A stretch of DNA of 37,954 nucleotides from Mesorhizobium sp. SARCC-RB16n (GTDB lineage: Bacteria; Pseudomonadota; Alphaproteobacteria; Rhizobiales; Rhizobiaceae): the NCBI RefSeq assembly GCF_008520305.1, contig NZ_ML703299.1:1-37954 (forward strand), written 5' to 3'. Below the pieces are notes generated by a model, which was not told the origin of the DNA, did not search any database, and saw only the letters and a program-made list of their open reading frames with translations. The position numbers and the translations under genes were made by a program. Of the stretch, positions 26 through 30,711 are shown piece by piece (the first letter of the stretch is position 1; each line of letters opens with the position of its first letter).

Positions 26-161
26 CCCCTGCCCCACGAGGGGGGAGATCGGATGTCATCCGTGCTTTCGCCAATCACCAGCATTGCAAGAAAGCGACGG
101 CCGCGAAACTGCCAATCTCCCCCCTCGTGGGGGAGATGTCCGGCAGGACAGAGGGGGGCGC
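26..161. repeat. RIME-like palindromic repeat, copy 1 (left arm truncated)
   Basis: The right arm (about 110-161) carries the stem GGGGGAGATGTCCGGCAGG followed by ACAGAGGGGGGCGC, as in the two other copies at 26.9 kb and 29.2 kb. The left arm keeps only the inner hairpin with GGGGGGAGATCGG (about 26-52) and lacks the outer CCCCCCTCTGTCC part. The centre differs from the other copies. It lies just downstream of the minus-strand operon that ends at 193, so it may act as a transcript-end structure. The RIME name is by resemblance to rhizobial intergenic mosaic elements, not by a database match. Confidence 0.8.
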
Positions 162-192
162 GAAGGATCGCCGACGCAACGTGATCGGCTTT

Positions 193-13498: not shown

Positions 13499-14602
13499 CT
13501 ATGAGGCGTGCCGCAGGCTGACACCACTACCCTTGTCGAACAGCACCACCTTGTCGGGGTTCCAGGCAAAGCGCACCGGCTGCTCGATCGCGACATCGGT
13601 TCTGGCCGGCACCGTGGCGCGCAACATGGTGTCGCCGACGCGCAGCGTCAGGATCTTTTCGACGCCATGGTTCTCGACATCATGGACGCGTGCCTCGACC
13701 GGTGCGCCGCTCTCCAGATAGACGTCTTCAGGACGGATGCCGAAGACGAGCGGGCGACCCTCGGTCGCCGCGCTCGTCCCTGCCCCCGCAAAAGTCTTGG
13801 CCCCCGCTGAAAATGGCAGTTCGAAATTCAATGGTGCCATCACCGCGCGGCCGTTCACCAGCTTGCCGTCGATGAGGTTCATCGGCGGCGAGCCGACGAA
13901 GCTCGCCACATAGGTATCGCGCGGATTGTTGTAGATCTCGTGCGGCGTTCCGGTCTGGATGATGCGGCCATGGTTGAGCACGCCGACCTTGTCGCCCATG
14001 GACATTGCCTCGATCTGGTCGTGGGTGACGAACAGGAAGGTGGCGCCGAGTTGCATCTGCAGGTTCTTCAACTCGGTGCGCAGCGCCTCACGCAGTTTGG
14101 CGTCGAGCGCCGACAGCGGCTCGTCCATCAGGAACACGCGCGGTTTGCGCACGATGGCGCGGCCGATCGAGACGCGCTGCATCTCGCCGCCCGAAAGCCG
14201 GTCGGTCTTGCGATCGAGCAGGTGCTCGATCCGCAGCGTTCGGGCGGCGCGGTCGACGCGGTCCTTGATCTCGGCGTCCGGCAGCCGGCGGATCTTCGGC
14301 TTCAGCGGAAATTCGAGGTTCTCGCGCACCGTGTAGCGCGGGTAGAGCGAGTATTGCTGCAGCACCAGCGCCACGTCGCGCTCGGCCGCGCCCCAGGCGG
14401 CAACGTCGACGCCGTCGATGAAGACCTGCCCCCCGCTCGGCTTCTCCAGGCCGGCGATCAGCCGCAGCGTCGTCGTCTTGCCGGCGCCCGTCTCGCCAAG
14501 CAGGACGAAGAACTCACCATCGGCGATGTCGAGGTCTAGCCCGGTCAAGGCCGTGTGGTTGCCGAAAATCTTAGAGATGTTCTTGAGCTGGATATGGGCC
14601 AT
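13499..14602 (-). CDS. Sugar-type ABC importer ATPase 2 (MalK/UgpC family), LSGGE signature
   Basis: The 367-residue ATPase has Walker A GETGAGKTT (36-44), the Q-loop near residue 82 (LQQYSLYPRYTV), signature LSGGE (136-140), and Walker B followed by DEP (about 160). A C-terminal OB-type regulatory region is as in MalK/UgpC. The acidic residue at the fifth signature position and Glu in Walker A (GET rather than GPS or GQS) are notable. The stop of the upstream ATPase and the ATG of this gene overlap by one base (TGATG). It is the last gene of the six-gene importer operon and probably forms a heterodimer with ATPase 1. Confidence 0.93.
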   Translation of the reverse strand: MAHIQLKNISKIFGNHTALTGLDLDIADGEFFVLLGETGAGKTTTLRLIAGLEKPSGGQVFIDGVDVAAWGAAERDVALVLQQYSLYPRYTVRENLEFPLKPKIRRLPDAEIKDRVDRAARTLRIEHLLDRKTDRLSGGEMQRVSIGRAIVRKPRVFLMDEPLSALDAKLREALRTELKNLQMQLGATFLFVTHDQIEAMSMGDKVGVLNHGRIIQTGTPHEIYNNPRDTYVASFVGSPPMNLIDGKLVNGRAVMAPLNFELPFSAGAKTFAGAGTSAATEGRPLVFGIRPEDVYLESGAPVEARVHDVENHGVEKILTLRVGDTMLRATVPARTDVAIEQPVRFAWNPDKVVLFDKGSGVSLRHAS

Positions 14603-15705
14603 CAGAGTCTCACCTCCAGCGACTTGCCGCTTGCCTTGTCGAAGAAATGCGCCTGCGTAGGATCGATTCGGGCAAACACCTTCTCGCCAGGCCCGGCGAC
14701 GAAGCCGCTCTTTGTGCGGGCCCGCAGCATGTTCGAGCCGACCTTGAGGTCGACGATGTCGAAGGAGCCGAGCGGTTCGACGATCTGCGTCTCGACGGCC
14801 ATGAAGCCATCGGCCGCGTCACGGCGAATGAGCACGCCCTCCGGCCGGATGCCGAGCGCCAGGCTTCCACTAGCATGGCCATTGAGCTTCGACAGCAACG
14901 TGCGGGGAAACTCGAAGCCGGTGGGAGCGTCGCCCACGATCACCGATGCGACCGAGGCCTTCTCAGCGACGGCTGCGTCGGCGACATTCATCACCGGACT
15001 CCCGACGAACTGGGCCACGAACAGGTTGGCCGGCCGCGAATAGACCTCGTCTGGCGTTCCCACCTGCTGCAGCACGCCCTCATGCATGATGACGATGCGG
15101 TCGGCGAGGCTCATCGCCTCGATCTGGTCGTGCGTGACATAGATGGTGGTCGAGCCCTGCTTGATATGCAGCCGCTTGATCTCGGCCCGCATCTCCTCGC
15201 GCAGCTTGGCGTCGAGCGCGCCGATCGGCTCATCCATCAGCATCGCCTTCGGCCGCCGCACCAGAGCCCGGCCGATGGCAACGCGCTGCATGTCGCCGCC
15301 CGAGAGGGCCGACGGTTTCTTGGCCAACAGGTCTGAAATTTGCAACGTCTTGGCGACCGAACGTACTTCCTGGTCGATCTCGCTTTTGCTCTTGCGCATG
15401 GCACGCAAGGGAAAGGCGATGTTCTCGTAGACGCTCATATGCGGGTAGAGTGAGAACGACTGGAACACCATCGCGATGTCACGGTCGGCCGCCTTCAGAT
15501 GCTGAACCTGCTTGCCATCGATGAGGATGTCGCCCTCGTCGATGGTTTCCAGCCCGGCAATGGCGCGCAAGGTCGTAGTCTTGCCGCAGCCAGACTGGCC
15601 GAGTAGCACGATGAACTCATTGTCCGAAATTTTGAGGTTGAGGTCCTTGATGACCTGGACGGCGCCGAAGAATTTCTGGACGCCGCGAAGCTCGATCTGG
15701 GTCAA
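14602..15705 (-). CDS. Sugar-type ABC importer ATPase 1 (MalK/UgpC family), TTG start, LSGGD signature
   Basis: The 367-residue ATPase has Walker A GQSGCGKTT (36-44), a Q-loop near residue 82, signature LSGGD (134-138) and Walker B with MDEP (about 157-160). A MalK-type C-terminal domain follows. The start is a TTG at 15705. It overlaps the stop of the small membrane-protein gene as TTGA and has GGGAG seven bases upstream. The open frame runs further upstream, but that would overlap the whole small gene. It is equal in length to ATPase 2, which is consistent with a two-ATPase importer in which each permease contacts a different subunit. Confidence 0.92.
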   Translation of the reverse strand: MTQIELRGVQKFFGAVQVIKDLNLKISDNEFIVLLGQSGCGKTTTLRAIAGLETIDEGDILIDGKQVQHLKAADRDIAMVFQSFSLYPHMSVYENIAFPLRAMRKSKSEIDQEVRSVAKTLQISDLLAKKPSALSGGDMQRVAIGRALVRRPKAMLMDEPIGALDAKLREEMRAEIKRLHIKQGSTTIYVTHDQIEAMSLADRIVIMHEGVLQQVGTPDEVYSRPANLFVAQFVGSPVMNVADAAVAEKASVASVIVGDAPTGFEFPRTLLSKLNGHASGSLALGIRPEGVLIRRDAADGFMAVETQIVEPLGSFDIVDLKVGSNMLRARTKSGFVAGPGEKVFARIDPTQAHFFDKASGKSLEVRL

Positions 15706-26895: not shown

Positions 26896-27056
26896 GCGCC
26901 CCCCTCTGTCCTGCCGGACATCTCCCCCACAAGGGGGGAGATCGGCTGTCATCATCGTCTCGAACAATTACCAACGTCGCAGGACGGAGCGCCGCGCCGA
27001 GGCTGCCAATCTCCCCACTTGTGGGGGAGATGTCCGGCTGGACAGAGGGGGGCGCC
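26896..27056. repeat. RIME-like palindromic repeat, copy 2 (complete)
   Basis: The arms 26896-26946 and 27005-27056 are near-perfect inverted repeats. Each contains an inner hairpin (CCCCCACAAGGGGG on the left, CCCCACTTGTGGGG on the right) and an outer part with GGACAGAGGGGGGCGC or its complement. The centre of about 58 nt is unrelated to that of the other copies. It lies between the binding-protein stop and the permease start, where it could separate expression levels within the operon. Confidence 0.85.
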
Positions 27057-27099
27057 GTAGGGCGCGACCTCTAGCGTTTTCAAGCGGTGCCCTGTTGCC

Positions 27100-28086: not shown

Positions 28087-28913
28087 GCCGTCTGCGCCGC
28101 TTTCTGCGCACGCCCGAGGCGCTTGCCGGCGCCATCCTTCTGGCGGTGCTGTTCGCCATGGCGCTGTCGGCTTCGCTGCTGTTTCCTGGCGACCCGCAAG
28201 CCATCGCCGGCCCCGCGCTGCTGCCGCCATTCCAAAACTGGTCGCTGCCGCTCGGCACCGACCGGCTCGGACGCGACGTGCTGGTCGAGTTGTTCCACGG
28301 CGCCCGCACCTCGCTTGCCGTCGGCCTCGCCGCGGCCGCCACGGCCCTTGTCATCGGCGCGGTCGTCGGCACGCTGGCCGGCTTTGCCGGCGGCCTCGTC
28401 GACGAGGTGTTGATGCGCATCACCGATGCATTCCAGACCGTGCCTGGCTTCCTGCTGGCGCTGGCCTTCGTCAGTGTGGTTGGCCCCTCGCTCGGGGTCG
28501 TCGTCGTGGCGATAGCGCTCGGCACCTGGACGGGGCCGGCGCGCATTGCCCGCGCGGAAGTGCTGTCGATCCGCGAGCGCGACTATGTCGCCGGTGCCCG
28601 CGTGATCGGCATGCATCCGCTGGAGATCGCCTTTCGCGAAGTGCTGCCCAACGCCTTGCCGCCGGTACTGGCGATGTCATCAGTGATCGTCGCCGCGGCG
28701 ATCCTCACCGAAGCGGCTCTGTCCTTCCTTGGCCTCGGCGATCCCAACCGCGTCACCTGGGGCGGCATGATCGCGGAAGGCCGCACTGTCTTGCGCACCG
28801 CGCCCTTCCTGTCGATCGTCCCCGGCATTGCGCTGCTGCTGACGGTATTGGGCGTCTATCTCGCCGGCGAAGGCATCGTCGAGACGACGGCAGTGCGCAG
28901 GGGCCTGTCGTGA
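28083..28913 (+). CDS. Dipeptide-type ABC importer permease 2 (DppC-like)
   Basis: The 276-residue protein is DppC/OppC-like. It has an early membrane helix, a GTDRLGRDVLVELFHGARTS motif typical of this subunit, and the EAA segment RDYVAGARVIGMHPLEIAFR. ATG at 28083 overlaps the upstream stop by four bases. The downstream ATPase starts in the last codon (GTGA). It forms the channel with permease 1. Confidence 0.93.
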   Translation: MSRLRRFLRTPEALAGAILLAVLFAMALSASLLFPGDPQAIAGPALLPPFQNWSLPLGTDRLGRDVLVELFHGARTSLAVGLAAAATALVIGAVVGTLAGFAGGLVDEVLMRITDAFQTVPGFLLALAFVSVVGPSLGVVVVAIALGTWTGPARIARAEVLSIRERDYVAGARVIGMHPLEIAFREVLPNALPPVLAMSSVIVAAAILTEAALSFLGLGDPNRVTWGGMIAEGRTVLRTAPFLSIVPGIALLLTVLGVYLAGEGIVETTAVRRGLS

Positions 28914-29938
28914 CGGTGCTGGCGTCAATCCGCGATCTGGCGGTGACCTACCGCCGCGATGGCAGCGAAGTGGCCGCGCTAAGGAACATCAACCTCGACA
29001 TCATCGCAGGCGAACGCCTGGCCATCATCGGCGAAAGCGGATCGGGCAAGAGCACACTGGCGCTGGCGATCGCGGGGTTGTTGCCGCAGTCTGCCAGGAC
29101 AGAAGGGAGCATTGAGTGGATCTCTCAGCCACTGTCGGGTGCCAAGGCACCCCCCTCTGTCCTGCCGGACATCTCCCCCTCAAGGGGGGAGATCGGCAGT
29201 TCCGCCGCTGGCTCCTTCCAACCAACCTCAGCCCCGACAAGCTCGGCGATTGGCGAAAGCGGCAATAGGCGCACAATCTCCCCCCTTGAGGGGGAGATGT
29301 CCGGCAGGACAGAGGGGGGCCTCGTAGGGCGCAGAGGGCAAGAGTCTGCCTCCAAACCAAACCATAACCTCCTCCTCGGCCGAGACATCGGCTTCGTCTT
29401 CCAGGACCCATCCGCCAGCCTCGATCCTGTCATGGCGATTGGCAAGCAAATCGCCGAGGTGGTGCACACCCATCTCGGTCTCGACTGGCGGCAGTCCTTC
29501 GCCAAAGCCATAACCTTGCTTGAACGCGTGCGCCTGCCCGACCCGGACTCGGCCCTGCATGCCTTCCCGCATCAGCTCTCCGGCGGCCAGAAGCAGCGCG
29601 TAGCGATTGCAGCCGCGATTGCCGCCGGGCCGAAACTGCTGATCGCCGACGAGGCGACCAGCGCGCTCGACACCATCGTGCAGGCCGAGATCGTCGCGCT
29701 GATCCGACGGCTGGTGGCCGAGGACGGCATGACACTGCTGTTCATCAGCCATGACATTGCGCTCGCCGCCGAGCTTGCCGAACGCATCGCCGTATTTCGT
29801 CATGGCGAACTGATCGAACTCGGCGGCACTGGGCAAATCGTCAATGCGCCGACGCAAGCTTATACACGCGCGCTGCTCGACGCTCATATCGGCCTCGACG
29901 CCGCGCCCTTGCTGAACCGAAACGGGCTGAATGCATGA
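28910..29938 (+). CDS. Peptide ABC importer ATPase 1 (DppD-like) with an in-frame palindromic-repeat insert
   Basis: The 342-residue ATPase has Walker A GESGSGKST (41-49), Q-loop FVFQDP (about 163-168), signature LSGGQ (223-227), Walker B LLIADEAT (243-250) and the His loop FISHD. Between Walker A and the Q-loop, residues about 71-153 are not ABC-like. They read APPSVLPDISPSRGEI (80-95) and ISPLEGEMSGRTEGG (123-137) and are encoded by the two arms of palindromic repeat copy 3. The frame is kept through the whole insert. GTG at 28910 overlaps the permease stop as GTGA; GTG at 28916 is an alternative. The insert falls in a variable surface loop before the Q-loop, so activity may be retained; that is inference. 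Confidence 0.9.
   Translation: MTVLASIRDLAVTYRRDGSEVAALRNINLDIIAGERLAIIGESGSGKSTLALAIAGLLPQSARTEGSIEWISQPLSGAKAPPSVLPDISPSRGEIGSSAAGSFQPTSAPTSSAIGESGNRRTISPLEGEMSGRTEGGLVGRRGQESASKPNHNLLLGRDIGFVFQDPSASLDPVMAIGKQIAEVVHTHLGLDWRQSFAKAITLLERVRLPDPDSALHAFPHQLSGGQKQRVAIAAAIAAGPKLLIADEATSALDTIVQAEIVALIRRLVAEDGMTLLFISHDIALAAELAERIAVFRHGELIELGGTGQIVNAPTQAYTRALLDAHIGLDAAPLLNRNGLNA
29150..29319. repeat. RIME-like palindromic repeat, copy 3, inside an ATPase coding sequence
   Basis: The arms 29150-29193 and 29276-29319 are a perfect 44-bp inverted repeat around an 82-nt centre. Each arm contains its own small hairpin (CCCCCTCAAGGGGG, or CCCCCTTGAGGGGG in the other arm). The arms match those of copies 1 and 2, whereas the centre does not. 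It is translated in frame as part of the ATPase gene at 28910-29938. A transcript could form a very stable hairpin. Confidence 0.95.
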
Positions 29939-30711
29939 GCCTGTTGACGGTATCCAACCTCACCAAACGCTATAGTCGCGGCGGCAAGACCCTCGCCGCG
30001 GTGGACGATGTCTCCTTCCATATGGAGCCCGGCGAAACGCTGGCGCTGGCAGGCCCTTCCGGCAGCGGCAAGTCGACAATCGCGCGGCTGGTCCTGCGAC
30101 TGATCGAGCCCGATGGCGGCCGCATCGAATTCGAAGGCGATGATTTCCTTACCTTGCGCGGCGCGCCCTTGCGTGCGCGCCGCGGCCGCCTGCAGATGGT
30201 GTTCCAGGACCCGCTCGCCGCGTTCAACCCGCGCGCCACGGTGGCGCGCGTTCTCGACGACCCCTTGCGTATTCATGGCGTCGCCTCACGCTCCGAGCGC
30301 CCGCGCCGCATCGCTGCCTTGCTGGAACGGGTCGGCCTGGCGGCCGATCTCGCGCCGCGCGCCATCCATGAAATCTCCGGCGGTCAGCGGCAGCGCGTGG
30401 CGATTGCGCGCGCCATCGCCACCAAGCCGTCGCTGATCGTGCTTGACGAAGCGGTGTCGGCGCTCGATGTCTCGGTGCGCGGCCAGATCCTCTCCCTCCT
30501 GCTCGACCTGCAGCGCCAGGAACGGATCGCCTATCTCTTCATTTCGCATGATCTCGGTGTGGTCCGGGCGGTCGCCCACCGCGTCATCCTTCTCGATGCC
30601 GGACAGATTGCCGAGAGCGGTGACGCCCGAGCCGTCATCGACGCACCGCAATCGGCCATCGGCAAGGCGCTGGTGGCGGCTGCCCCTAAATTAAACAGAA
30701 ACAGACCATGA
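29935..30711 (+). CDS. Peptide ABC importer ATPase 2 (DppF-like)
   Basis: The 258-residue ATPase has Walker A GPSGSGKST (about 41-49), Q-loop MVFQDPLAAFNPRAT, signature ISGGQRQRV and Walker B LIVLDEA. The LISHD-type His loop is visible as FISHDLGVV. It is the partner of the DppD-like subunit, overlapping it by four bases (ATGA). It lacks the insert found in ATPase 1 and shows the normal length between Walker A and Q-loop, which makes it a useful internal comparison. It is the last gene of the operon and converges on the Frc-type ATPase. Confidence 0.93.
   Translation: MSLLTVSNLTKRYSRGGKTLAAVDDVSFHMEPGETLALAGPSGSGKSTIARLVLRLIEPDGGRIEFEGDDFLTLRGAPLRARRGRLQMVFQDPLAAFNPRATVARVLDDPLRIHGVASRSERPRRIAALLERVGLAADLAPRAIHEISGGQRQRVAIARAIATKPSLIVLDEAVSALDVSVRGQILSLLLDLQRQERIAYLFISHDLGVVRAVAHRVILLDAGQIAESGDARAVIDAPQSAIGKALVAAAPKLNRNRP

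Follow-up and report, generated by a model that had tools for sequence, protein, structure and literature searches.

The DppD/OppD-like ABC transporter ATPase gene of Mesorhizobium sp. SARCC-RB16n carries a palindromic repeat in frame, and the same element is found in frame inside CobG and CobN. We consider it likely that this is a coding palindromic element similar to the Rickettsia palindromic elements (RPEs), which is tolerated as an apparently disordered loop and whose core flips back and forth by means of its arms. A dispersed rhizobial palindromic repeat would have entered a tolerant loop of the ATPase in the ancestor of the main Mesorhizobium clade, where it would be translated as about 65-77 additional residues with a high content of Ser, Pro, Gly, and Glu that most probably form a disordered surface loop, and it would persist because it does little harm (near-neutral). 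As the anatomy of the element suggests, the near-perfect inverted arms may keep undergoing homologous recombination, or the template may be switched upon fold-back of a strand, and either event would invert the centre in place. Owing to the mirror symmetry of the arms, neither the frame nor the arm peptides would be altered, whereas the peptide of the centre would become an entirely different one. Frame-keeping deletions would also remove the core repeatedly.

Anatomy of the insert in the ATPase gene

The window, i.e., the whole stretch of 37,954 nt that was analyzed (contig NZ_ML703299.1), contains the ATPase gene and two further copies of the repeat (Table 1). A preceding reading of the sequence alone (the sequence-only reading) had described a perfect 44-bp inverted repeat with an 82-nt centre, and its coordinates hold: the arms are 100% complementary over 44 nt with a spacing of 82 nt. 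The insertion was proposed to separate the Walker A and Q-loop motifs without a change of frame, and indeed the 342-aa open reading frame (ORF) reads through without a stop with all downstream motifs in frame. The adjacent paralogous ATPase was judged by eye to have no such insert, as had been stated. The interval containing the element and its outer flanks is delimited by chosen anchor residues, by which the exact borders of the element are not fixed.

Table 1. Coordinates of the features in the window.
Feature	Position	Strand	Remark
Second copy of the repeat family elsewhere in the window	26..171	.	
Intergenic copy of the same family, 5' of a permease gene	26896..27065	.	
DppD/OppD-like ABC transporter ATPase CDS, carries the insert	28910..29938	+	GTG start, 342 aa, no internal stop
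Walker A, GESGSGKST, residues 41-49	29030..29056	+	sequence and alignment
Anchor residues 76 to 153: element and outer flanks	29138..29365	+	228 nt (multiple of 3)
Left arm of the palindrome	29150..29193	+	44 nt, translated ...PPSVLPDISPSRGEI
Centre of the palindrome	29194..29275	+	orientation A, 82 nt in the window
Right arm of the palindrome	29276..29319	+	perfect reverse complement of the left arm, translated ISPLEGEMSGRTEGG
Q-loop glutamine codon (Q165)	29402..29404	+	in frame 3' of the insert
Paralogous ATPase ORF without insert	29935..30711	+	258 aa, by eye

The Pfam model ABC_tran matched two stretches of the 342-aa ATPase, the best of which (residues 143-251) follows the insert, and the NCBIfam models for Dpp/Opp-type ATPases were top-scoring but remained below their own cut-offs. 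In an alignment of 74 sequences the residues G41, S43, S45, G46, K47, T49, and Q165 as well as S224-Q227, D247, E248, and H281 are invariant; we take these to represent Walker A, the Q-loop, the signature, Walker B and the H-loop. Sequence alignment to the solved DppD places the insert at a short stretch (query residues 80 to 154 versus residues 82 to 87 of 8wd9_D), and the fraction of order-promoting residues is 0.24 in the palindromic blocks compared to 0.34 in the ATPase. Alignment to solved structures and composition thus point to a loop of the protein. The centre in the window is 15 nt longer than the usual 67 nt, an in-frame expansion that is unique among 34 dppD copies. Elsewhere in the window, positions 13991-14197 and 15100-15306 form a direct repeat of 207 nt with 72% identity, which is perhaps the conserved core of two adjoining ABC ATPase genes.

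Carriers, remnants and empty sites among dppD orthologues

Orthologues were taken as the best 80 of at least 545 confirmed loci from one scan of GTDB species genomes; L044, in which the part before the insert is missing, was left out, and the 79 readable loci together with the window constitute 80 rows. A full palindrome is present in 34 rows, a remnant or scar in seven, and the site is empty in 39, i.e., the uninterrupted orthologues expected from the sequence-only reading exist. As a refuting outcome that reading had named orthologous inserts consisting of unrelated DNA, whereas the orthologous inserts consist of the same palindromic DNA. In a quick tree, the 34 carriers, the seven remnants and eight empty rows are intermixed within one well-supported clade of 49 rows. 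All 12 rows outside of this clade are empty, as are 19 further loci that are not on the tree. The centre comprises 67 nt in 32 of the 34 full copies (cut at shorter arms), 64 nt in L011 and 82 nt in the window.

The insert length is a multiple of three in 39/41 dppD inserts, the exceptions being L031, with one extra C, and L037, which is out of frame and has an N within the insert. In L031 (6001-7009, M. ciceri WSM1271) the ATPase is frameshifted by the extra C in the C run of the left arm. The ATPase part following the insert in L031 shows a dN of 0.020 and a dS of 0.251 compared to L004, and since dN is well below dS this frameshift may be recent or a sequence error. In L015, the nearest row to the window, the core is gone but the frame is preserved; L046 and L047 resemble, by eye, deletions at CAAGC microhomology. 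For the empty rows L038, L039, L041-L043, and L048 a gene replacement is possible because these resemble the outside rows at the insert site.

CobG and CobN as further hosts

It had been suggested that the arm peptides may be found in other genes with the same in-frame insert, and this was borne out by CobG and CobN. The CobG protein is matched by TIGR02435 at 466 bits over residues 33-457, spanning the insert, and CobN by NF008973 at 1610 bits. Two insert sites are found in CobN, and both correspond to short stretches of the solved CobN in a sequence alignment (9uk9_A residues 198-199 for site 1 and 483-493 for site 2).

Across the genus, CobG was matched in 79/81 genomes, in 52/79 of these in one piece through the insert position (by eye). 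On single contigs, 21 split pairs of CobG matches were observed and every gap is a multiple of three (by eye); in the remaining genomes the matches are fragmentary, or in a single piece but shorter there. The element is absent in many species, for CobG as for dppD. The best 30 of the 79 matching genomes were examined for cobG, and the best 30 of 80 (81 searched) for cobN. As the query carries the insert and these loci are best-scoring, the share of carriers in the two sets does not represent a frequency. All 30 cobG loci carry the element (13 in orientation A, 17 in the reverse-complementary orientation B), and at cobN site 2 it is present in 29 of the 30 loci, in all of these in frame (13 A, 16 B).

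Selection and reading frame

The part of the ATPase following the insert shows a dN/dS of 0.163 in carriers (Nei-Gojobori, median of 528 pairs) and of 0.129 in empty rows (28 pairs), while for the centre of the element, compared between dppD copies of the same orientation, the values are 0.80 and 0.81. Purifying selection acts on the ATPase, and the centre of the element evolves nearly neutrally. That the insert marks dead or mis-annotated genes, i.e., pseudogenes or sequencing artefacts, might be read from the frameshifted L031, the N-containing L037 and cobG L139, in which a stop lies within the shifted element. However, 39/41 dppD inserts are in frame, the carriers have a dN/dS of 0.16 with invariant key residues, and the other 29 of the 30 cobG loci are open from side to side. 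This reading is already contradicted by these observations and we regard it as very improbable. Several matches in the genus-wide CobG search contain stops, where the query starts 28 residues earlier than the aligned CobG.

The palindromic block has a length of 1 mod 3 in 91/93 genic copies (dppD 33/34, cobG 29/30, cobN site 2 29/29) and in just 21/119 nongenic copies; a Fisher p-value for this difference is only descriptive, as the rows are not independent and, for cobG and cobN, the top-scoring loci were used. This bears on another explanation, by which bypass, splicing or proteolysis would eliminate the insert from the transcript or the protein, leaving a working protein without it. Although a long hairpin could form between the arms, the conserved length modulo 3 is as expected if the insert is translated and would be needless for removal at the RNA level, and Rfam finds no RNA family in the window at gathering thresholds. 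We give hardly any credence to such a removal, even if one acting after translation would be compatible with both observations. In-silico inversion of the block leaves 30/33 in-frame dppD copies without a stop.

For all genic copies compared, the flipped frame is free of stops in 55/62, and in a further comparison in 56/64 genic versus 106/238 nongenic copies. Selection for coding in both directions was considered and is unsupported, since synonymous resampling of the same 62 peptides with matched codon usage gave a mean of 60.4 stop-free flipped frames, which the observed 55/62 does not exceed. As stop-freeness is predicted by codon resampling, a stop-free flipped frame gives no sign of selection on the unused frame.

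Two orientations of the centre and its inversion

The dppD centres fall into two clear classes that are mutual reverse complements, with 23 copies in orientation A and 11 in orientation B among the 34. Orientation B is found in 11/34 dppD, 17/30 cobG and 16/29 cobN site 2 copies, in sum in 44/93 genic copies. On the host trees, of which that for dppD was built from flanking DNA without the insert, at least 11 (dppD), nine (cobG) and 11 (cobN) orientation changes are required. For cobG and cobN shuffled labels gave means of 10.0 and 9.8, about the same as observed, and scoring the dppD B label against all other rows also gave 11 changes (10.3 on average after shuffling). When trees are built from the centres instead (33, 21, and 29 copies), at least six, eight, and eight changes are required for dppD, cobG, and cobN, of which the well-supported branches force only one, one, and three.

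Direct support for inversion comes from pairs of relatives. The cobG centres of L125 (B) and L121 (A) are 0.93 identical when one is reversed, and those of L123 and L121 0.90; for cobN the reversed-centre identity is 0.93 for L230/L211 and 0.88 for L212/L211. The host identity of these pairs is 0.88-0.90 and the non-palindromic flanks keep their position. As a near-identical centre (88-93%) thus occurs reversed between unchanged flanks in relatives, CobG and CobN show in-place inversion of the centre. Consequently, GSFDAGFSLTAPEIGETIGDGV in one relative and ALSPMVSPVSDVVKEKPASKLP in a second one are encoded by almost identical DNA. Flipped pairs within the closest 60 of each gene have a mean identity of 0.69-0.73 when reversed and of 0.59-0.64 when unreversed.

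At dppD, the closest opposite pairs show a reversed-centre identity of 0.63-0.76 at a host identity of 0.91-0.93, and the best value overall is about 0.82. As no dppD pair is as close as those in the other two genes, it is by analogy to CobG and CobN, and from the presence of two orientations, that an in-place inversion can be presumed at the ATPase. The description of the repeat as recombining in the sequence-only reading therefore holds as in-place inversion between relatives for CobG and CobN, and for the ATPase as a presumption. The low reversed identity at dppD implies that allele replacement or ectopic conversion also changes centres, so that the counts of orientation changes do not represent pure inversions. 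Presumably, allele replacement or fast change hides or replaces inversion at this site.

This raises the alternative that exchange of alleles, ectopic gene conversion or the repeated insertion of other copies, rather than in-place inversion, accounts for most orientation differences. In many sister species, above all at dppD, the centres are little more alike than paralogous copies, dppD centres are 0.84-0.93 identical in the distant rows L009/L012/L013, and the outer flank types of the dppD element look mosaic by eye, all of which speaks for exchange. Against it stand the clear reversed cobG and cobN pairs with the same flanks, in which centre identity equals host identity, and we judge exchange as the main source to be possible, though rather unlikely.

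Intragenic invertons are stretches within a coding gene that can flip between flanking inverted repeats and thereby recode some of the encoded protein. In analogy, the segment described here lies between inverted repeats within a gene, occurs in both orientations (between species, in three genes, with one genome per species) and recodes a part of the protein. In contrast, it is part of a dispersed repeat, its inversion leaves the downstream frame unchanged and the orientations are known between species only.

Copies of the repeat family outside of host genes

The sequence-only reading had listed related repeats at 26-161 and 26896-27056 of the window. Both are real, the former lying near 26-171 and the latter at 26896-27065. 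In 28 of the loci L001-L061 a non-ATPase copy is also present, mostly near the place corresponding to 26896..27065. This neighbouring intergenic copy (26904-27047, and the same place in L002-L059) is in orientation B in 2/27 of the clade and in 4/29 in all, the copy of the window being one of the two B copies in the clade. Its arms have a mean complementarity of 37.8 of 39, compared to 37.6 for dppD and cobG and 35.6 for the nongenic sample. The rarity of B at this copy (2/27 versus 44/93 genic) is not explained by a simple neutral flip.

It speaks for a selected switch (phase variation), in which inversion within a population would provide two forms of the ATPase, CobG or CobN with different activity. 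Besides the rarity of B in the neighbouring intergenic copy, both orientations are common at the three genic sites without a clear phylogenetic signal. The dppD centre, however, evolves almost neutrally in both orientations, many species have no element at all, and the comparison refers to one intergenic site with one genome per species. A selected switch thus appears unlikely to us, and the tolerated insert with a flipping core is preferred.

Four Mesorhizobium genomes contain 48-186 matches each to a 25-nt arm pattern and none to the reversed-pattern control, by which a chance origin of the palindrome is excluded. The proposal that the element is mobile is in line with this copy number, which suggests that it originally spread through the genome. 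The surroundings of the arm matches were examined in three genomes, i.e., in nearly all of G002 and in part of G003 and G004. At least three of the 94 paired copies sampled are in frame within recognized genes (cobG twice, cobN once) with the family spanning the element. The other crossing ORFs searched against Pfam or NCBIfam either matched no family or had one that lies next to the element (L116, L118), and many long ORFs cross elements by chance in GC-rich DNA. As at least seven crossing ORFs lie outside of the Pfam/NCBIfam search, 3/94 is a lower bound and the copies termed nongenic may include unrecognized genes. Orientation counts for copies from random places in the genomes (48 A, 43 B, 91 in total) depend on an arbitrarily chosen strand and are uninformative. 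In L158 (2491-4113) and L207 (2468-4081) a copy lies just 5' of what is likely the signal-peptide start of one unnamed protein common to both, which could represent a 5' leader or an N-terminal extension.

Mobilization as a RAYT-driven REP is not supported: the RAYT family (Y1_Tnp, PF01797) was found in one of the four genomes, with one match in G002 and none in G001, G003, and G004 (genomes of unstated completeness). Similar DNA is present at 806 places in 152 of 72,556 plasmid records, mainly from Sinorhizobium (66) and Rhizobium (47) and also from Shinella. The Rhizobium-specific intergenic mosaic elements (RIMEs) were reportedly defined by Osteras in 1995. RIMEs are described as rhizobial intergenic repeats in the available part of the source (PMC2573895). 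Related DNA of the element on Sinorhizobium, Rhizobium, and Shinella plasmids, i.e., its presence as a repeat across Rhizobium and Sinorhizobium, resembles this distribution, whereas the copies studied here sit inside genes; judged by description, the element is probably of the RIME kind.

Comparison with known coding repeats

The reading of the palindrome as an RPE-like coding insert is supported, as a dispersed palindromic repeat lies in frame in dppD-like genes, cobG, and cobN. As far as the accessible part of PMC2229807 reports, RPEs are 105-146 bp in length and intergenic, and are also fused in frame in 19 reading frames, many of which belong to conserved proteins; one RPE-carrying product, Gmk, is made and active, and a title in the reference list of that paper indicates similar elements in Wolbachia. 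Both systems share a palindromic repeat that occurs between genes and in frame inside conserved proteins. In contrast to RPEs, the hosts are high-GC relatives of rhizobia, with the likeness drawn from descriptions, the element occupies the same gene sites in much of the genus, and the core inverts between relatives, which is not described for RPEs in the accessible part of PMC2229807.

Intragenic REPs (GTAG/CGTC) were reported inside ORFs, at about the same recB site in two Xanthomonas species (PMC3733652, accessible part). They are likewise palindromic repeats within ORFs; however, REPs are described there as 20-40 bp in length with GTAG or CGTC tags, whereas the Mesorhizobium unit comprises about 145 nt plus flanks. 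Among the papers listed in the literature searches (titles and abstract openings, with few subscription papers) no description of such inserts in rhizobia or of their inversion was found. Known are thus in-frame palindromic repeats in Rickettsia and intragenic REPs, and apparently new are the inserts of rhizobial relatives with their inverting core. Coding palindromic repeats, known from Rickettsia, are thereby extended to high-GC relatives of rhizobia. The inverted copies constitute a natural experiment, in which nearly the same DNA is read oppositely and in frame in the same protein loop of relatives. This opens a way to distinguish by experiment between inert baggage, a source of new protein sequence, and a switch. 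A further caution is that predicted Mesorhizobium proteins can hold repeat-derived segments.

CobN loops as sites for several palindromic repeats

CobN site 1 contains either this element, whose left arm is read in a different frame there, or a second palindromic repeat, scars, or nothing. The second repeat has perfect ends of 22 nt and is read in frame at cobN site 1 (L212, L216, and others). A third repeat (CCCCTCATCCG..TTCTCCCCG..CGGGGAGAAGG), with hairpin-like inverted segments (by eye) and a length that is a multiple of three, was found in the CobN loops of L241, L250, and L236. The latter locus, from the genus sample, carries it at site 2. Among 12 more distant CobN loci of the family that were compared, L241 carries the third repeat at both sites and L250 at site 1, L242 carries the element described here at both sites, and the nine others have at most 39 nt at either site.

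It can be speculated that several unrelated palindromic repeats permanently use CobN sites 1 and 2 and the loops of CobG and DppD as landing sites throughout the family, and that arm-mediated inversion is at the same time a live switch within populations offering two unrelated loops per protein. If true, landing sites together with live inversion would constitute a built-in generator of protein variation; we consider this combination unlikely. At cobN site 2 of L246, a more distant relative, a short stretch ERIISPTRGEI is found that may be a remnant of the element.
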